A stretch of 14,463 nt of DNA from Chloromonas sp. AAM2 (Eukaryota; Chlorophyta; Chlorophyceae; Chlamydomonadales; Chlamydomonadaceae): the NCBI GenBank assembly GCA_004335635.1, contig QAXH01002925.1, forward strand, positions 1-14,463. The letters are read 5' to 3'. How positions within the stretch are numbered: position 1 is the first letter of the stretch; each line of letters starts with the position of its first letter. The notes beneath the pieces are model-generated. The model made no database searches. It worked only from the letters and a program-made list of their open reading frames with translations, and was not told the DNA's origin. Below, one piece after another: positions 781 through 13,750 of this stretch. Made by a program: the position numbers and the translations under genes.

Positions 781-3700
781 TCATCGCATGCCAGAGACTG
801 CACCACTGCACAACGCTGCTCTGGCATGCCCAGCCACGTGCACGGCTTGTGATGCATGCGGCAAACAGGCAGGCCGTTTTCGGTTGACAATCTGCACGCC
901 CAAACGACCTCCGCCCCGTTGCCCACATGCATTCATCAGAACACCCCAGTCCTGCCTATGCCAGCCGCTGAGATAGCCGATCCTGCCTCCAATACCCCTA
1001 TGAATGCACGATGTAGCACAATGAAGTGCACTACGACCAGGCATGAGCCAACTGCCTTCATGCATTGCCCGAGTCCGGCCGGGCGGGGATTTTCCGCCTG
1101 CGCCCGCTGAACCACCTCCCTGGTCCGTCGGCCCCGGCTCAGCACCGGCATCACGTGGCTCCCACGGCCGTTTCCCACGTGACGTTTCCTTGCCGTTTTT
1201 CTTACCGTTTCCTGTATCTCCGCCTCCCGTCACCCGTCCCGCCGCCGCCCCTTCCAAGCCATCACTCTCGCTCGACCCCTGCCCGATCGCCCCCATCCCC
1301 GTCCCCACACCCTGCTGTTGCTGCTGTTGCTGTTGCTGCTGCTGCTGTGGCCCCGCGTAAACCATCAGGACCCGCTGATTGCCCACCCCCCCATCCCCAA
1401 CCACCTGGCCGGAACACCAGAAAGCGACGCCCACAACCGCCAAACCGACCAGGCAGAAGAGCAGCAGGGGGTGGACCGAGCTTGTGGCTGCTCCAGCAGC
1501 GGTTGCGGCCACAGCAGGCGGTAGCTGGGTGGAAGCTGCCGCTGCAGCTGCTAGTGACGGGAGGGCATTGGCAAAGGCAATGGAGAGACAGCAGAGCACC
1601 AGCAAGGGTGCAGCCAGGAGGGTCGAGCCGCCTAGCAAAGCAGACGCTAAAGCCTCATTCAAACGGAAAGAATGAGCGTACTGTAAGATCTGCATCACAA
1701 GCAAGCAAAAGGAACGGTTTTAACGTGTTGTTGCCAGCCGCCCAACTGCCAGGGTATGGTCAGTTTGTGAAAACCAAACTCATGGAGCTGCAAAGGCTAG
1801 GTGGACGTTGCTCGCTTATGCTTGATTGTTTTACCATCGGCCCACTCAGCCAAGTCACAAGCGGCACTATAAGTGCCCACCCAAACGGACGGACAACTGC
1901 TAGAAATGGATAAAGAAACCGATTTCCCACCTCAGGTGCCATGGGAGACAGTAGGCCGATCAGAACACCTGCCACAGCCGTCACCGCCGCTGCATTCGCT
2001 GGCCCGACCAGCAGCAGCACGCATGTGCACACAGCGAGTGGCGCAGCGGCTCGTGCGGCCACTAGGCGGGCTACTTCCGGAACCTGCATCCGAAGAACAA
2101 CAACAACAGCGCAAAACAAACGTGACCGTATTGGCTTCTCCAAATGACAGTTGACGTCAGGTGCGTTTATGAACGTTTGTTACAAAATCCAAGTGAGGAA
2201 GCCAAACCTCGGCGCTCAGAAGCCCAACCCAGAAGAGGCAGCAGTTTGAGGCAGGTTAGCTCAACTAATCAGCTCATCACTCGATTGTTGACACTCCAAG
2301 TCGGCACCTACACCCATACCTTCCACCTACACCTTACTCCGTACTCCAGAGCCCATCAACGCTGGCTGTGGCCTATCAGCCTCACCGGCCTGACCCCGAA
2401 CCCTAAACCCTAAACCTAACGTGTTATGACCTCTTCCTCCTAACCTCCTAACCCAATCTACCATGGCTGGCTGTGGCATGTCAATCTTGATGGACATTCC
2501 CGCTGCCATTAGCATCAGCGGTTTGTTGATGGGCGCCAGGGCGCCAGTAACCGCATCCAAAACGCCTGGTAACGGCTGCCCCAGCGCCACTAGCAGGAGT
2601 GAGGCCACACCGGCCCACAAAGGCACATACTGGAGCAGCAAGGCCGCAGCGTCTTGCAAGGTGCCGCCACCAACTTCAACACTGCAGTTGTGCAATAGTT
2701 GAGTCCGTTTCTCGTCAGTTTTGAAAGCTCCTGTCACTTGAGTTGAACATTACGATGCAGAACGTGCGGCCGCCCACTTGAACGCTGAAGACGAAATCAC
2801 AGGTCGGGCAGCAAGTGAACAGACTGTTGTGTTATTGTGGTCTGCAGCAGAGGGCCTGAGATTCCTGTTTGTTTGCTTTGCGCTCCTGTGTACATCAGTG
2901 TGTTTGATCCTTCGCGTGAAAATGGCTCTCATACCAAAACGACACACAACACAGAATTGTCATCACAGAATTGTCATCACACAGTCGCACACACTAACCT
3001 GCGTGCTGCCAGAGCCGCCTCGCCCGCTCCTTCGGCCGCGTAGGTGCACTGCCACAGCTCGAGCGGCGCCTCCCGCTGCCCGCCCCGCCACCGCCCCGCC
3101 CGCACTTCCCCGCTGGCTAGCGTCCTGACACCTACCCCGCTCATCACACCGCCCGCCCACTCGCCCTCGTACGTGCCGCCCTGCGGTGCGGTGGCGGGTG
3201 TTTTATGCCAAATGAATAAGGTTGTCATGACGGTATGAAGAGTTATTGAGTGCCACGGGCGGTCCCGAGCGTCGCCGAGCATCTCGAGCGGTGCCAAACG
3301 TCACCGGAGCGTCGCCGAGCGTCGCCGAGCATCTCGAGCGGTGCCAAACGTCACCGCAGCGTCGCTGGGCTTGGCTTAAAATGCTCTGTGTTTGGTGATG
3401 CCAGCTTGAAAAATGCTTGCCTAACATGCTTGCCTAAAAATGCTTGCCCATAAAATGCTTGCCTAAAAATATGGCGTGTGTGCACCACGATAGCGCGCTA
3501 CCACACACCGGTCACACACACCTTGGGGTAGTAGTAGACCCCCCTGCCATCCTTGAGATTGTCCCTCCACTCGCCCTCATACCGAGCACCACTGGGCCAA
3601 GTGTACACACCCAGACCCTCCTTGCGCATACCCTGAGAAAAACGGCAAAACGGCACAGTCACATGCATCGTCACATGCACCATTGGGCCATGCGCACACA

Positions 3701-6700
3701 CCCAGCCCCTCCTTGCGCATACCCTGGAAGAAACACAAAAACGCACACAAGATGTGCCCATTTGTAGCCACATACATGCACGACTTCTGCACAGGCAGTG
3801 CATTGCTTTCGGTTGCATCATGCTCTGTACAGCTGATCTGTACAGCTGATCTGTACAGCTGATCTGTACAGTTCATCATGCTCTGAAGGGTGGACAGGCA
3901 GCTGCAAAGCGACCGCGATCTAGCACAAACTGAACCAGATGTAGTCATGATCTCAAAAAGGTGTCATTTGACGATACACAATTCGATCAAGTTACTGCAA
4001 CCAATCCCTAGTATATCCAGTCTCATATCCAGCCAAGCATCACTCTGTCTATCTGCATCTGACCGCTTGTCTGAGCGATCATCCAACACTCACCCTCCAC
4101 TGCCCCCTATACACGCCGCCGTCCTCGTGCCTGAATGCCTCGGGAAAGGCCGGGCCAGCACTGCCGAACAGCAGGTAGGACACCCCTCGCACTGCGACCA
4201 CAAGACACATGCGCACAAGTGAATCACCTAAACATACTGATAATGCGCACTGCAGCCACAAGGAAGCACTTTCACTGACCCTTCCGCTGACCCTTTCACT
4301 GACCCTTCAGCTGACCCTTTCACTGACCCTTCCGCTGACCCTTTCACTGACCCTTCTGCTGACCCCCTCAGAGTTTGCACGCCAGGATGTGCTGGGCCGC
4401 TCCCGGCTCGCACCGTTACCCTTTCCCTTCCTCTCCTCCTCCCTCACCCCTCGCCCTCCCCGCCTCGCCCACACCTCCCAGCGTTCCACTCTCATTGAGC
4501 CTTTGACACATTCCTTATACTGTCACACAGCCCTTGGGCCAACCTGCAATTGTATCTGCCAATGTTGCCAGCGACAGTGACATCGTCCTCCTCTCACCAT
4601 TTCACCCCACGCCCCTTCCTCCTCGTAGCCCCTTCTCCTCCTCCGCACCTCCCCCCAGGCCTACCTGCTACCGCGTTCATGAGCGTTGCCAGCACCTCCT
4701 CCACACCTCCCCCCAGCCCTACCTGCTACCGCGTTCATGAGCGTTGCCAGCCCCTCCTCCACACCTCCCCCCAGGCCTACCTGCTACCGCGTTCATGAGC
4801 GTTGCCAGCACCAGCGGTTGCAGCGGTTGCAGCCCACCCATCACAGCCTCCGCCACCGGCAGACCAATCAAGGGCATGGAAGTGCCCACACTGGCGCCTA
4901 GGAGCACAGCCCTCTCTCGCTTCTGTTTGACCACACACTGGAACCTGCATGCGTCAATTTGAAATCTGGGATGGAAATCTGAGACCAGCATCTGAACGCC
5001 TCTGCGTCACCAGACACTAAAACCTGCGTGTTATAACAGAAGATTTTCCAGCAGTCTCTGAGCCGAGCATTGGAGGTCAGCATTCATCAGATCAAGTGAA
5101 CAAAACGTGTACATTGTAAGAATCATGAAGATTCTGACCTGCATTACAGCATGTATCATGCACTGAGGCCAACTTTCATCACATAACACAAGGCTGGCAT
5201 GTTCTACAAAGCCAATTGTAATTGTAATCGGTTAGTTAGCACACAGGATATGCGATCACCGTCTGAGCCCAGCATCCGTGCATGTTGGCTGCGGCACTGC
5301 ACTTGACACCAGCTTATCCTTGCAGGCCGGAGGCGATTGGCAGGCCCTGGAATCTGCCTCTCTGTCAAACTGTTTGAGCTACGGAAAACGATTCGCTCCT
5401 GGCCCAGTCCATGGTAGGACTTGCTCTGTCAAATGTCATCAGTCAATGGTCAAATGTCTAGTCACAGACTGGCAGCCCACCCCAGGCAGGGTGTATTGTG
5501 AACTTCAACAAATGTAAGTTAACAACATATTTGTTTTTCTTGGTGGTCACTCACCATGCGGCTGCTCCTTGCATGCCAAAGGCCACCAATGCCACCCCAG
5601 CGCCCAGCCATGCCTCGATCGACACTGGGCCAGAGCTGCATAAAACAGGAGCAGGGAGAAGCACGCACTCGTCACACCTCGTCACACCTCGTCACACCTC
5701 GTCACACCTCGTCACACCTCGTCACACCTCGTCACGAAATGGCATTCACAGATTAATCCAAAGCATCGCCCAAATCTGCCCCAAGGCAATACACATGGCG
5801 GGTAGGCCTAGTGGACTGCCTCTGAAACGAATTCTGCAGCGTTAGCCAGCCTGTCGAAAGATTAAAAAAGGGAGGAAGCCGGTCAGAACAACAGGTTGAA
5901 AGCTTTGCCAGGCGTGGAAGCACAGACAGCAGAGCCACCATGGCGTGGAAGCATAGACAGCAGAGCCACCATGGCGTGGGAGCATAGACAGCAGAGCCAC
6001 CATGGCGTGGGAGCATAGACAGCAGAGCAATTGGCAGACTGCTGCGTTGTAGTATTGTAACCTCCTGTGCTGCTGACGTGGGGCCGGGGATCGGTGGGAT
6101 GTGGAACAATCCACGCAAAGTTTTGAGCCTGCCATGCTTCTTCGCCGGCCGAATAGCATCACCGGTGCAATGACAGAGGGGTTATTCGCGCTAAGGCGGA
6201 GTCGAGAGGGGTTTGCTGGTAGGGTGAGGGGGGCAAGGGGGTCGCCTGCTGAGAGTGGCTCGCTCAGGGCGAGTCGGGAGGAGTGCTGCTGCTCCCAATG
6301 GCCACGCTGCTTCTGCTGTTGTTGCCACTGCCAATGCAATTGCTGGCCTGCTGTGGTGGGCTGTAAACGCTGCCATCGTTAATCTTGGTCTGCTGCTACT
6401 GCTGCTGATGCTGTCATTGCTGCAGGTGCTGCACTCTGCGTGCTGTGATATGGTACCAGGTACAATGGTCGGTTCTGCTCCAGACGCGCAACACCAACTG
6501 ACACGCTGCCTGTGGTTTCTGCTGGCCTATCTCACATTGATGCCGTTGCTGCTGTTTCGCACAGCCAAATCCCATCATGCCCCATCCTCACCAGCATATG
6601 GACCTGATGATGACTGATGGCAGTGTGAGGTAGCTGGCGATGCGTAGTGCTGTCTGCATGCAGGTATGAGACGGAACGCTATTTCCACGTATCTTGGCAC

Positions 6701-6847
6701 CCTGCATGCCAAGGTGCCCAACACATGGGCTACTGCATGCATGCGTCACACCTGGCCATCACTAGGGCGTAGAAACCCGGATTGGCGTAACTGATGGCCG
6801 ATGGCGAGCAGGGCGCCGCACTCGGCTGCCCCTGCCAGCGCCTGCAT
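781..6847 (-). CDS. AEC/PIN-like membrane transporter with MORN repeats in its central loop (10 exons)
   Basis: Exons in transcript order: 6847-6752, 6653-6592, 5635-5555, 4944-4781, 4191-4094, 3632-3522, 3180-2999, 2681-2462, 2083-1931, 1689-781. All introns are GT..AG, every junction keeps phase, and the total is 2076 nt (691 aa). AEC proteins are secondary transporters of organic anions or auxin; the substrate here cannot be read. Helices, approximate residues: TM1 3-20, followed by a GHQLRQSGFLRPSDGQ-type turn; TM2 33-54 (YLTLPSVIIRS); TM3 62-84; TM4 92-116 (PLIGLPVAEAVMG); TM5 121-143; TM6 284-299; TM7 316-330 (NKPLMLMAAGMSI); TM8 347-365; TM9 370-388 (LLSPMAP); TM10 406-428, after FRLNEALASALLGGST. 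TM4 and TM9 carry prolines where PIN structures show the broken crossover helices. MORN repeats occupy about 159-240. Residues 429-691 are an unusual tail with an extra hydrophobic segment (463-480) and 12 Gln (504-515). Start: first ATG before TM1; an upstream exon is possible. Least certain are the N-terminus and whether the last ~180 residues are all coding. Confidence 0.85.
1312..1347 (-). repeat. CAG/CAA run encoding 12 glutamines
   Basis: Twelve consecutive CAG or CAA codons on the minus strand, in frame with the last transporter exon (residues 504-515). The run lies after the extra C-terminal hydrophobic segment and before a Gly/Ser/Lys-rich low-complexity tail. Mixed CAG and CAA codons make it less prone to slippage than a pure CAG tract. 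Confidence 0.85.
2398..2420 (-). repeat. short interstitial TTTAGGG telomere-type motif
   Basis: The minus strand reads two full TTTAGGG units plus a partial one, inside transporter intron 8 shortly after its 5' splice site. TTTAGGG is the plant and common green-algal telomere unit. Several TTAGG-like words lie just upstream in the same intron, so it may be a decayed, longer insertion. Confidence 0.6.
2951..2984. repeat. two direct copies of a ~16-bp word
   Basis: ACAGAATTGTCATCAC occurs twice in tandem, inside transporter intron 7 close to the exon-7 donor. Probably a simple slippage duplication. Confidence 0.6.
3267..3366. repeat. two-copy 50-bp tandem repeat
   Basis: A 50-bp unit beginning GAGCGTCGCCGAGC is repeated at 3267 and 3317 with few differences, inside transporter intron 6. 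The unit has internal GAGC(G/A)TC(G/T)CC-like sub-repeats and is more GC-rich than its surroundings. Confidence 0.8.
3409..3470. repeat. ATGCTTGCCTAA tandem repeat
   Basis: About four imperfect 12-17 bp units containing ATGCTTGCC, with A-rich spacers, in transporter intron 6. They lie about 50 nt downstream (minus sense) of the exon-6 donor at 3521. Confidence 0.75.
3686..3723 (-). pseudogene. duplicated start of MORN exon 6 with its own acceptor
   Basis: On the minus strand a pyrimidine-rich tract plus CCAG is followed at 3723 by GGTATGCGCAAGGAGGG and further sequence closely matching the start of the real exon 6 at 3632, about 38 nt with scattered substitutions. The offset is 91 bp. Translated it begins GMRKEGLGVCAWPNGA, so the MORN pattern is still visible. 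Using this acceptor would add 91 nt and shift the frame, so it is either a decayed exon duplicate or an alternative acceptor giving a truncated product. Confidence 0.75.
3825..3876. repeat. four-copy 13-bp tandem repeat
   Basis: CTGTACAGCTGAT repeats with a 13-bp period from 3825 (copies at 3825, 3838, 3851 and 3864), inside transporter intron 5. Each unit contains the palindromic words TGTACA and CAGCTG. Confidence 0.85.
4270..4367. repeat. 12-bp tandem repeat with a 24-bp higher-order unit
   Basis: CTGACCCTTCCG and CTGACCCTTTCA alternate for about eight units in transporter intron 4, so the period is 12 bp with a 24-bp super-period. On the minus strand it is a purine/GT-rich GGGTCAG array. 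Confidence 0.9.
4638..4812 (-). repeat. three-copy 58-bp repeat carrying the exon-4 donor
   Basis: Three near-identical 58-bp units. On the minus strand each contains CTCATGAACGCGGTAGCAG followed by GTAGG, that is, the last codons of transporter exon 4 and its 5' splice site. Donor GT dinucleotides therefore occur at 4780, 4722 and 4664. Only the first keeps frame with exon 5, since 58 is not a multiple of three. The other two would frameshift or, for the third, include an in-frame stop at about 4719-4721. Confidence 0.9.
5668..5735. repeat. 10-bp tandem repeat CTCGTCACAC
   Basis: Nearly seven perfect copies of a 10-bp unit in transporter intron 2. They begin only about 30 nt upstream (minus sense) of the exon-3 acceptor at 5636, where branch-point and pyrimidine elements would be expected. 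Confidence 0.92.
5912..6028. repeat. four-copy 31-bp minisatellite
   Basis: GCGTGG starts at 5912, 5943, 5974 and 6005, giving a 31-bp unit with GCATAGACAGCAGAGCCACC inside each and a shortened last copy. It lies in transporter intron 2. Confidence 0.92.
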
Positions 6848-7165: not shown

Positions 7166-9434
7166 ATGTATAGGCGCACCGCTCAGGCAGCCCCTCGTGC
7201 GTCCGCTGCATTGGTTCAGCGCCCAATGAGCTCAAGGGTGAGGGCAAATCTATGGAGTATATTGCTTGAGCTTCTAGAGATTCGTTTCGAGACACCTCGT
7301 TTTGCCTCATGCTGCTCAACCACTCCCACTCTTGCTTCCCTTTTCTCCCTGTTAAACACACGCTGACCACCCACACTGCTTCTCCAGCCGGTCTCGGGCA
7401 TGCCATGCACTCCGCACATCACTCACAAACAGTTTGTCAGAACCACAGGATGTCTTTCCATCTCGTTCCTTGACCTCAGGTGGCTCGCAGCAGTGTTGTG
7501 GTGCGTGCTGCCGCTGACTCCGGCCCCAACCCTGTGCGCTCAGCCATTGGCGGCCTGGTGTCAGGCATCTACAAGCTAACCGCCATGACCCAGACTGTTG
7601 AGCCAGGGCTCAGTCCCCTGTGGACTGCCATCTCCAAGCTAGACGCGGAAGGTGTCAAGTGAGTGTGGGCTTCTGAACGTGACAAGGATATCACTACCTG
7701 TATCTCAAACTCAACAAACAATCTCCTTACACTCTAGGATGCTTTCACAAGGTCGCCATTGGCGAGCAGGCTACTTTCATTTGCGAACTTTGCTTGTAAA
7801 TGACAGTAGCCTGCTCGCTAATGGCAACATCGTGCAAGCATAAGGTTTGTCGAGATTGACATACAGCTAGTCGATGGGTAGTCTCAATGGATAGTCCCAA
7901 CAAGAGCTCTGCGTAGGCAAAGCTTTGTGTGCTGCAGCTCGGCCGCCTGACCAGCAGTGATCATTCCAATCGCCTCAGGCAGCAGGACTCGTGTAATCAG
8001 CCCAGCCCCTGAGGCAGAAAGAAGTTGTGGTGGTGGCAGCGCAAGCAATGGCACAATGTATCCAACACAACATCACTGTGCGCTCACTTAGTAGCGTCAT
8101 TTGTGGCCCAGTGACAGCAGCCCTGCAATGCCTGTGGCCTGTGCGCCTGTTTTGGTACTGGCTCACCCCGCCGGTGCCTGTGCATACCGCATCACGGTCG
8201 CAATGATGCCAAACTTTTGTCTGTCCAGGGCTGCTGCTCGGTCTGGTGCCGATCTGAACGAGCGCAACGGCGCGGGCGACACGCCGCTGCTCATGATCGC
8301 ACGCCAAGGGCACTACAAGTACCCCCCGGCAGAGGTGCGGGCAGGGAGGGGGAGGGGTTGTTCTGACGGGAGCAGACTCAAAAATCAGACCAAAGCACAC
8401 TGACACTCGAACTGTCCCCCTTGACGCTCACCCTTCCTTCCTTCTCGCGCAAACTATGCACTGACCAATGCCTCTTCCTTGACTATTGGTTAACCCTAAC
8501 CCTAACCCTTTCTCTAGTCTTTGACCTTAGCTCAGGCGGCTCCATCCTGCTTTGCCTTCAGTTGGCCTGCCTTGCCTGCTTTGTTCCCTGCGTTTGTTTT
8601 GCTTTTTTGCTTAGGGTAGGCCAGGACGGTGCCCATCCTGTTCAGTGTCCTCTGACGGCTTCCCTGGTGTAAATACATATACATATACTATTAGTACCCT
8701 CAACCCTCATGTGCTTCTTTGGCACTCATTTTCCTTCCCCGGTCACTCCTTGTTCTTTCCCCGGTCACTCCTTGTTCCTTTCCCCGGTCACTCCTGGTTC
8801 CTTTCTTGAATCTCATCTGCAGATTCCTCAGGCTCTGCTGTCTGCCGGTGCCGACAAGGAGGCCAAGGACAAGGCGGGCATGACGGCCCTGCAAGTGTCC
8901 ATGCTGTCGGGCTGGCAAAACATTGCAGGTAATAACATCATTGTTGTTGTAAATTTATCCATGGGAAAGGGCAGGAGGGGATGGCAGAACTTGGCAGGGG
9001 GACAGGGGGGATACAGGTGTAGGTTCAGATGTGGGCACATGCAGTGGCTTGGGTAAGATGCATCACGCACTGCACCCTGACACGCTATGCTATTTTTGCC
9101 ATGGCATGACAGTCATCCAACAACGCTGCACAGGGTGTCTCAGGTTGTGTTCACACTCTTTGCTGACGTCCGATGGCTGTGCACCTTCCATGACTCCATG
9201 ACAAAACCTATCACGACTCCAGACAGCCATTGCACCTTCTTCAGTGCTGATTGCAGTGCCCATGCACCACCATGTGACCACCTCGATGTAATCCATGGCT
9301 CCATGTGACCACACGCCTTCCTGTGCGCAGAGCTTCTGATCAAGTCTGGTGCTGACACGTCCGGCGTGGCTTCCATTAAGTCGCGCCTCACATGCCCCGA
9401 CTGCAAGGCGCTCGTGGTCAAGTACAGCCTGTGA
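7166..9434 (+). CDS. small ankyrin-repeat protein, probably chloroplast-targeted (5 exons)
   Basis: Exons 7166-7237, 7480-7658, 8229-8334, 8823-8928 and 9331-9434 join in phase to 567 nt (188 aa, stop TGA). All introns are GT..AG. Residues 1-36 are rich in Arg, Ala and Ser with no acids and reach SSVVVRAAAD; V-R-A/A is a typical green-algal transit-peptide cleavage site, so a stromal location is likely. The mature part has ankyrin units: GADLNERNGAGDTPLL then ARQGHY (about 91-114), ALLSAGADKEAKDKAGMTAL then SGWQNIA (about 123-154), and a final ELLIKSGADTS half-unit. The C-terminus is SRLTCPDCKALVVKYSL, with one CxxC. Ankyrin repeats bind proteins; the partner is unknown. LTD/GDC1, the familiar small chloroplast ankyrin protein of the green lineage, was considered, but I do not see its conserved region, so no name is given. 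Start: ATG 7166 or the in-frame ATG at 7139, nine codons earlier. A TGTAA at 10034-10038 is a candidate poly(A) signal. Confidence 0.82.
7739..7841 (+). ncRNA. intronic hairpin resembling a microRNA precursor
   Basis: Inside intron 2 of the ankyrin gene, 7739-7775 pairs with 7805-7841: of 37 positions, 32 are Watson-Crick, one is G-U and four are mismatches. The stem continues inward, after one mismatch, with 7777-7782 pairing 7798-7803 and four weaker pairs, leaving a loop of about seven nt (7787-7793). The longest block without mismatch is 21 positions (7755-7775 with 7805-7825). Such a stem matches Dicer substrates of green-algal introns. A miniature inverted-repeat element is the main alternative. 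Confidence 0.45.
8490..8511. repeat. short CCCTAA telomere-like run
   Basis: Three CCCTAA-type units (TTAACCCTAACCCTAACCC) in ankyrin-gene intron 3, directly before the dispersed repeat copy that starts at about 8514. Confidence 0.55.
8514..8688 (+). repeat. dispersed repeat, copy A
   Basis: A segment of about 175 bp in ankyrin-gene intron 3 that recurs in inverted orientation at about 10576-10750. Shared landmarks in order: CTAGTCTTTG, GGCGGCTCC, GGCCTGCCTTGCCTG, a T-rich stretch, GGACGGTGCCCATCCTGTT, GTGTCCTCTGACGGCTTCCC, then TGGTGTAAATACATATACAT. The end is a TGTAA word followed by a short ATACAT microsatellite, which would suit a non-autonomous retroelement 3' end. No coding capacity is seen. 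Confidence 0.75.
8731..8806. repeat. ~22-bp tandem repeat with CCCCGGTCACTCCT
   Basis: Three units, each with CCCCGGTCACTCCT(T/G)GTTC, in ankyrin-gene intron 3. They end about 15 nt before the exon-4 acceptor at 8822, so the array provides part of the pyrimidine-rich 3' splice region. Confidence 0.85.
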
Positions 9435-9516: not shown

Positions 9517-9575
9517 GAGGTTGATTGATTTGTTACATCAGGGAAGCCGTCAAAGGACACGGGACGGGTTGTGGA
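9517..9575 (-). repeat. dispersed repeat, copy B (partial)
   Basis: Minus-strand sequence with GTCCTTTGACGGCTTCCCTG, ATGTAAC and an ATCAATCAA tail. It closely matches the end of copy D at about 13055-13113 and is related to copies A and C. It lies about 85 nt after the ankyrin-gene stop codon. Confidence 0.7.
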
Positions 9576-10575: not shown

Positions 10576-10750
10576 GTATATATATATGTATTTACACCAG
10601 GGAAGCCATCGGAGGACACGGAACGGGATGGGCACCGCCCTGGTCTACCCTGAGCAAGAAAGCAGAACGAAAGCAGGGAACAAAACAGGCAAGGCAGGCC
10701 AACCCAATGCAGAACAGGACGGAGCCGCCAAAGTCAAGGCCAAAGACTAG
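10576..10750 (-). repeat. dispersed repeat, copy C
   Basis: Inverted relative to copy A, with clear similarity along about 175 bp. On the plus strand it reads TGTATTTACACCAGGGAAGC, then GAGGACACGGAACGGGATGG, GCAAGGCAGGCC and CAAAGACTAG. The TG-TATATATATA end replaces the ATACAT run of copy A, so the microsatellite tail varies between copies. Confidence 0.75.
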
Positions 10751-10893
10751 ATAAAGGGATGCTAGAAGGGCCAGGAGCCCTAGTCAGTCACGTCCAGGAG
10801 GAGGCAGCCAGGCTGCAACAGGGCGGAACGTCAGAGAACAGGGACAGCCAAACTGCAGCAGTTGCCAAAGAGCAGGGCCCGGAACACTGGCAT

Positions 10894-12471: not shown

Positions 12472-13750
12472 TTAGCTCAGGGGTGCTACCAGGGGTGGGC
12501 CCTGGGCTGAGCGACACCACACAAAAAGGTCGTCAATCTGCAAAGCAAAGGTTGACGACAAAATGTTCATAGCAAATACCAAGCTTCATACACGAGCATG
12601 GCAGGTGTTGCAGTCGAAGTGCTGCTGAGAAGGGTTAGGAAACAAGGTTCACAGAAATGTATCAAGCTGAGAACACAGGTGTTGCAATCATACCAGTGGG
12701 TGTCGGGCTGTGAGCAGACCACTCTGTATCATCATCATCATTATCATTATCATTATCATTATCATTATCATTATCATTATCATTATCATTATCATTGCAT
12801 GGCTTTTCATGGTTCAACCCACTGTACTGCAGCTAGACACAATATCTCTCCAAGAATTACACGCCCGACAATCGTTAAGAAAGGTCACTGAAGAAAGACC
12901 GCTTTGTAGAAGGGGATGAAAACACACAACCTACCCTCGAGTGCTAGTCTAAACTTCTGTTGTTTCAATTGGTTACTTGGTTTAATGTGTTAATTGGGGC
13001 TGTTGATGCCTTCTGCCTTCGGGCCTGTGTCTGCCTTCATTTGTTTTTAGTAGATCAGGGCGGGACACATCCCGTCCTGTGTCCTTTGACGGCTTTCCTG
13101 ATGTAACAGATTAATCAAGCAGGCAAGGAAGCAGCCAGGCACGAAAGCAGTTTTGCAACACAACGATAGCAGTCCTATTGGGACTTGCTGAATATCTTGG
13201 GGGCCCACACGCACCGAGCGCAAACGCTAGCAAGCCACCCAAGCTTTCACTGCACTAACTGTTTGTACTGCACCACTTACATGGTAATGACCTTGGAAGG
13301 TCATGCCAGCAGTTCTGACCGCCTCATTGCATGTATTTTGGATACTCTTCTTGAGCCCAGTGAAGAAGCGGTCGTGGTACTCGAACGTTATGCACCTGAC
13401 GTTTTGAATCCATGTCGCCCCGCGTGCAATGTCCTCACACAAGGCTAGCTCTGACCCTTCAATGTCCACCTGCGGAAGGCGTGTAGTAATCAATAACTCA
13501 AAGATAACTTCAAAATTGACTTCAAACCTCGAATATCAATGAATTAGTCAAGACACACTGCGAGTACGTATGCATCAATTGGCATTTTAAGCCGACCCGC
13601 GGAGAGCGTCAAAACAAAGTGCTTTATGTACCAAGGGTATGCATGGTGATGTTGGCTGCTGCTGAGCGCCGAGTTGGTTGGCCTTACGGTACCGCGATTC
13701 AAACCATAGTCAGCCATGTAATGATGAAAGTGATGAAGGGCACAAAGGGG
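12472..13750 (-). CDS. FkbM-type methyltransferase, 3' part (three exons, 5' end unresolved)
   Basis: Exons in transcript order: 13750-13688, 13469-13281, 12537-12472 (stop TAA). All three are phase 0 at both junctions, with acceptors CTGCAG, CCGCAG and TTTGCAG and donors GTAAGG and GTAAGT. The middle exon carries the FkbM signature VDIEGSELALCEDIARGA followed by VRCITFEYHDRFF, the acidic SAM-domain strand and the E-x-H that follow the core in FkbM/Methyltransf_21 proteins. The first exon (LHHFHHYMADYGLNRGT) fits the helix before the VDxEG strand (compare family patterns of the type L-x-x-x-M-x-x-x-G-x-x-x-x-D-x-L-K-x-D-I-E-G), although the join looks a few residues short. The last exon reads IDDLFVWCRSAQG and ends 13 residues later. 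The family transfers methyl groups from SAM, often to sugar hydroxyls; the substrate is not readable. The Rossmann N-terminal half (roughly 100 or more residues) is missing and should lie at 13751-14463 or beyond. Confidence 0.62.
12728..12796. repeat. TTATCA hexanucleotide repeat
   Basis: A short ATC run followed by about nine TTATCA units, inside the last intron of the methyltransferase gene. It yields artificial His-Tyr, poly-Ile and Asp-Asn ORFs. Confidence 0.95.
13021..13113 (+). repeat. dispersed repeat, copy D
   Basis: Plus-strand sequence with GGGCGGGACACATCCCGTCC, TGTGTCCTTTGACGGC, TTTCCTGATGTAAC and a GATTAATCAA tail, inside the last methyltransferase intron. It groups with copy B by its tail and with copies A and C through the GTCC-TTTGACGGC-TTCCTG core. 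Confidence 0.7.

Follow-up and report, generated by a model that had tools for sequence, protein, structure and literature searches.

A predicted AEC-fold protein carrying MORN repeats in its helix 5-6 loop in the green alga Chloromonas sp. AAM2

We describe here a gene from a 14,463-nucleotide stretch of DNA of the green alga Chloromonas sp. AAM2 (contig QAXH01002925.1, hereafter the window), whose predicted product is a divergent protein of the auxin efflux carrier (AEC) fold in which MORN units separate helices 5 and 6. The architecture by itself, an AEC-fold core with a MORN block in its loop encoded by one nuclear gene, we regard as very probable on the evidence of the DNA. The best explanation of it, which we think probably holds, is a divergent AEC carrier composed of two five-helix repeats and an 11th helix, with a cytosolic linker that contains three to four MORN repeats and with these repeats dimerising or docking; the docking role is its uncertain step.

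Gene model, MORN block and reading frame

The gene lies on the minus strand and was rebuilt from splice sites as ten exons running from 6847 to 781. All introns are of the GT-AG type (9/9), and their phases chain into a single frame of 688 codons including the stop, which corresponds to 687 residues; the ten exons and consistent phases of the original prediction are thus retained, and its length of 691 residues is not. The first four exons cover most of the first five helices, with exon 1 (6752–6847) containing the start codon and helix 1, exon 2 (6604–6653) helix 2 (TALRIASYLTLPSVII), exon 3 (5555–5635) helix 3, and exon 4 (4781–4944) helix 4 with a GLP motif and the start of helix 5. These assignments combine the splice-site model with an AEC N-half alignment (exon 1), an AEC profile alignment (exons 2 and 3) or an AEC alignment (exon 4). 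Exon 5 (4094–4191) carries the end of helix 5, placed by hydropathy and a weak ten-sequence AEC alignment, together with the first half of MORN unit 1. The splice-site model and Pfam place MORN units 1 and 2 in exon 6 (3522–3632; 111 nt, phase 0-0), and unit 3, a degenerate unit 4 and linker sequence in exon 7 (2999–3180). The AEC profile and half alignments place helices 6 and 7 in exon 8 (2462–2681), and helix 8 with most of helix 9 in exon 9 (1931–2083). Exon 10 (781–1689) encodes the end of helix 9, helix 10, an 11th hydrophobic segment, a poly-Q stretch, a basic tail and the stop; the coding status of its low-complexity end, beyond about 1250, is uncertain, with no AEC match in the tail and no Pfam match to exon 10 alone.

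The MORN block is clearly recognizable. Pfam family PF02493 matches the model with an E-value (E) of 2.2e-14 and 52.8 bits relative to a cut-off of 22.5, and three stretches pass alone. The units begin at residues 157, 180, 203 and 226, so the predicted four units at 23-residue spacing are present with exactly that spacing, although the consensus is largely gone from the fourth. Comparison of the insert with solved chains gave 31 distinct sequences at E up to 0.01, headed by MORN1 proteins, FAP266, junctophilins and radial spoke head 1. The profile searches therefore bear out the MORN part of the prediction but not the transporter part, as Mem_trans (PF03547) gives no row for the model at E up to 10 and the curated Pfam cut-off is not reached.

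The position of the block between transmembrane helices 5 and 6 (TM5 and TM6) is as had been proposed. The linker between these helices is about 130 residues long, compared with 8–53 (median 15) in a set of 85 bacterial AECs described below, in which no MORN was found beyond one chance-level match (E 0.63). With helix borders as set in this analysis, the six outer-side segments have no K, R, D or E, and the inner segments have K+R/D+E counts of 2/1, 4/1, 16/17 (the MORN loop), 2/2, 1/0 and 23/12, a charge distribution that places the MORN loop in the cytosol. Hydropathy also reveals the 11th strongly hydrophobic segment after TM10, peaking at residues 452–479.

One alternative to consider is that the MORN exons are part of a different transcript, or that the assembly has joined two genes, such that there is no fusion protein. 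The contig is short (14463 bases) within a 74.4-Mb assembly of 2324 contigs, agreement of phase at two borders would occur by chance about once in nine (our own estimate), and the fusion is predicted from genomic DNA. However, exon 5 contains both the end of helix 5 and MORN sequence in a single open frame between proper splice sites, the phases agree through exons 4–8, exons 5, 6 and 7 are each free of stops in the frame used, and both transporter halves fit one AEC in order. Exon 6 alone could be skipped in frame, but exons 5–7 together span 391 nt that are required to keep exon 8 in frame with the usual exon-4 donor, and their omission leads to a stop at codon 161. The claim that the MORN exons share the frame of the transporter is confirmed in this respect, and we consider a separate transcript or misjoin the least probable of the alternatives discussed here.

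Assignment of the transporter part

No curated profile recognises the transporter part, and the AEC label therefore needed testing. The MORN-free sequence has no Pfam match and no NCBIfam match at E up to 10, the C-half alone gives a single sub-threshold Pfam family (PF20712, E 0.59), and a phmmer search of Protein Data Bank sequences at E up to 10 returned one unrelated chain (E 0.28) and no PIN chain. A profile of ten AEC sequences, YfdV of E. coli K-12 and nine AEC genes from plasmids, was too weak (P 0.013, or 0.036 with MORN kept); HMMER with the first AEC profile gave the model E 0.013, and a phmmer comparison of the model with the early open frames had a best E of 0.03, the top match being an AEC. 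The larger set of 85 was drawn from open frames of at least 250 codons at PF03547 loci, of which 79 of 279 matched the ten-sequence profile; 75 were distinct, and the ten seeds were added.

Comparison of the MORN-free model with these 85 bacterial AECs using hhalign gives a probability of 97.2, a P of 4.4e-11 and a score of 78.5 over 281 columns. Shuffling the sequence 200 times within residue classes (hydrophobic, small, polar) gives a mean score of 16.8 (standard deviation 4.0, maximum 35.1), and the reversed sequence scores 13.6. Each half is also recognised on its own, the N-half at 36.6 (maximum of 100 shuffles, 22.9) and the C-half at 49.6 (maximum 26.4). Order matters: with the halves swapped the score is 49.7 over 142 columns and the N-half is lost, compared with 78.5 in native order, and with MORN kept only the C-half aligns, at 52.5. 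Random 13-sequence AEC subsets still score 46–75 over 207–283 columns in 10/10 draws.

The model keeps 28 of the 59 majority AEC columns (47%), and members keep 37–85%, in an alignment that includes the model and a count made without a shuffle control. Where the fold has a nearly invariant Gly or Pro, the model mostly keeps it. The TM4 Asn that occurs in 88% of the 85 AECs, and that is present in the PIN8 and LYCHOS alignments, is Ser in the model, and the column at the start of TM6 that is Pro in 100% of them is Val, with a Pro one residue later. The complete ten-helix AEC/PIN-like fold of the original prediction is thus supported as an AEC fold on both sides of the loop by the 281 columns, the halves and the swap, but an 11th segment follows, and a relation to PINs as such is not supported.

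The SBF (bile acid:sodium symporter) family provides an important control. When the 80 other open frames of highest hydrophobicity were scored against the AEC profile, one reached 53.3 and the next 20.7. The former is an SBF carrier, with 122.8 bits for SBF and 24.4, below the cut-off, for Mem_trans, and an SBF profile of 13 sequences was therefore built. Twelve of these sequences score 29–76 (up to 75.6) against the AEC profile over 102–147 columns, all on the C-terminal part, and score alone consequently cannot separate AEC from SBF, although full-length order does. In the reciprocal comparison the MORN-free core scores 18.1 against the SBF profile, below the shuffle maximum of 27.5, and there is no SBF row in Pfam. 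We rejected an SBF/BASS (PF01758) identity on this profile comparison, noting that the SBF profile is a weak detector because AEC members themselves score 17.9–55.3 on it (17 scored). The 281 columns with both halves in order, the AEC subset scores of 46–75 and the SBF profile score of 18.1 all argue for AEC rather than SBF. We also note that the SBF carriers concerned (L183, L213–L232) reach up to 75.6 on the AEC profile through one repeat only, and that AEC-SBF kinship is visible at the half-protein level.

Relative to the AEC family (PF03547; bacterial members, e.g. YfdV), the model is thus similar in its 281 columns in order and its 28/59 majority residues, and differs in lying below any Pfam reporting, in a linker of about 130 rather than 8–53 residues, and in its MORN units, which the 85 AECs lack apart from the one chance-level match.

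Models for function and comparison with known systems

In the model that we favor, the AEC-fold protein would use its family's elevator mechanism to move a small solute, and the MORN block would dimerise the carrier or dock it to a partner, which would either fix the location of the carrier or couple it to that partner. The MORN block would occupy the place of the disordered, phosphorylated loop of plant PINs. These have two five-helix domains and a cytosolic helix 5-6 loop phosphorylated by kinases, according to PMC11567971, which also agrees with the earlier statement that plant PINs are regulated by phosphorylation in this loop. The two proteins are alike in their 5+5 helices and in a large cytosolic loop between helices 5 and 6 (about 130 residues in the model), but the PIN loop is disordered and phosphorylated whereas that of the model holds MORN units, and the TM4 Asn is replaced in the model.

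The suggestion that the loop senses membranes or phosphoinositides is doubtful. TbMORN1, a pure MORN protein, showed no membrane or vesicle binding, although some interaction with individual phospholipids was seen, and the same report describes MORN repeats as protein-protein modules and MORN proteins as antiparallel dimers in crystals (Sajko et al. 2020, PMC7725318). Because TbMORN1 forms dimers and does not bind membranes, we think it more likely that the block dimerises the protein or docks it to a partner than that it senses lipids.

A link to auxin or to PINs is likewise not supported, the TM4 Asn being Ser and the TM6 Pro column Val. PILS proteins have been reported throughout the green lineages, and PINs less frequently in chlorophytes (PMC10015382, PMC8524130 and PMC11567971), and auxin is therefore not implied.

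Several observations weigh against a MORN-bearing AEC carrier. With the TM4 Asn replaced, transport could be altered or lost. SBF proteins score nearly as high on the AEC profile, so that the AEC score by itself is not specific, and an exon-by-exon profile search finds no Mem_trans match in this gene or across the whole genome. The gene model is predicted from genomic DNA, no orthologue was found in the sequences searched, and the second of the exon-4 donors discussed below could yield an in-frame form of 576 residues that is MORN-free and has helix 5 cut.

A different plausible model is that of a receptor or scaffold without transport, in which ligand binding by the AEC core would be relayed to a partner through the MORN loop, comparable to LYCHOS (GPR155). 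LYCHOS, the lysosomal cholesterol signalling protein, has GPCR and DEP domains after its AEC core. The loss of the TM4 Asn is consistent with this model, as is the recognition of LYCHOS chains by the AEC profile (E down to 3e-27), so that AEC cores do occur in signalling proteins. However, the model retains most of the Gly and Pro residues that are nearly invariant in the fold, and neither a GPCR nor a DEP match is found in Pfam. The likeness to LYCHOS is confined to the presence of an AEC core inside a larger eukaryotic protein; the 687-residue model lacks GPCR and DEP domains, and Pfam reports only MORN. We consider a receptor without transport unlikely, although it deserves more weight than the alternatives involving separate transcripts or splicing.

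Comparison with other MORN-repeat proteins (MORN1, junctophilins, radial spoke head 1, TIC 100 and kinesin-MORN) shows that they share the 23-residue YxGxW-type units, but 0/31 of the listed chains are named as a solute carrier with MORN between helices. No description of a pairing of AEC, PIN or transporter with MORN was found in open-access full text, protein databases lying outside that scope.

A bolder form of the carrier model, which we offer tentatively as possible rather than probable, is that the protein represents a new type of AEC carrier, in which a folded MORN rod between the inverted repeats dimerises the carrier or docks it to the cytoskeleton or to a second membrane, with transport being positioned or gated, perhaps switched by donor choice, and with a possible origin by MORN-exon insertion. 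The central loop is where plant PINs carry polarity and activity control. If the model is correct, the folded protein-docking module there in an algal AEC protein would position or gate such a carrier by an independent route, and the effect of inserting a domain between the two inverted repeats of an elevator-type fold could be tested on a single gene.

Duplicated splice sites, origin and genome surroundings

Two splice sites of the gene are straddled by tandem copies (4637–4812 and 3586–3743), which, as read from the repeat comparison, are putative competing splice sites made by repeats. At 4637–4812 there are three copies of a 58-bp unit carrying the end of exon 4 and its donor. At 3677–3743 there is a 67-nt copy (84%) of the acceptor and start of exon 6, situated 91 nt upstream of it; the acceptor of this copy, at 3723, is out of frame and was discarded as an acceptor for exon 6. 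Donor choice at the duplicated exon-4 end could in principle decide between two isoforms with and without the MORN loop, splicing thereby switching docking. Of the alternative joins tested, that from the second donor copy (after 4723) to exon 8 alone keeps the frame to the normal stop, with 577 codons including the stop; joins from the usual or third donor to exon 8, and from the second or third donor to exon 5, all stop early. Helix 5 would be shortened in the MORN-free form, however, the 58-bp repeat may be a neutral minisatellite, and the donors are predicted from genomic sequence. Such a switch seems to us very improbable, if marginally less so than a separate MORN transcript or a misjoin.

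The exon structure suggests how the fusion may have originated. In two other MORN genes of the same genome, L010 (C2004) and L013 (C2273), an in-frame GT directly follows GxW-K in phase 0, and introns probably lie there. Exon 5 of the gene described here ends after W-R, also in phase 0, at the equivalent place. MORN exons may thus have been inserted after being cut behind GxW-K/R in phase 0, a place seemingly common to the two other genes, although a third MORN gene of the genome, L017, has no in-frame GT after GxW-K/R.

No close relatives were confirmed, either among 145 pattern matches in bacterial genome contigs or among eight in viral contigs, and plasmids gave no match to the model at E up to 10. 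In the phylum of Calothrix, 20 of 194 genomes match at E up to 1, but the best candidate (2.3e-4) covers 45 residues with three internal stops and was judged to be chance. The alga's own genome has 18 matches at E up to 10, ten on this contig and eight elsewhere, and all eight of the latter fall within residues 145–239, the MORN stretch and its borders. Separately, a weak PIN8-like match on the plus strand of another contig (G000:C1524:36286-36423; 37% over 48 residues, E 0.18) lies in a 402-codon open frame and is possibly another AEC gene.

Within the window, TGTAA, which we take to be a green-algal polyadenylation signal, occurs at 79–83 on the minus strand, the only copy on that strand within positions 1–1100, and is a possible signal for the gene. 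Ankyrin-like exons at about 7474–9430 on the plus strand are arranged head to head with the carrier gene (Ank_4 E 0.0038, below the cut-off, in one of three scanned frames). Two inverted repeat pairs, 8506–8688 with 10576–10758 (183 nt, 86%) and 9521–9573 with 13066–13118 (53 nt, 91%), and a hairpin-like 44-nt pair at 7739–7841 (86%), are perhaps dispersed mobile elements.

Further observations concern the contents of assemblies. The closest match to an rbcL on contig C2098 of the Chloromonas assembly is the RuBisCO entry 1gk8, from Chlamydomonas, in keeping with a green-algal host. The rbcL at L032, on contig CAKZGI010000286.1 of a Trichormus metagenome-assembled genome, is 89% identical to that of this alga from residue 1, the other 79 loci being at or below 85%, and this contig may come from a green-algal plastid and have been binned with a cyanobacterium. 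Another full-length RuBisCO large subunit (L030, C1812), bacterial-looking by eye, is present on a separate contig, and the Chloromonas assembly may hold a co-cultured bacterium.

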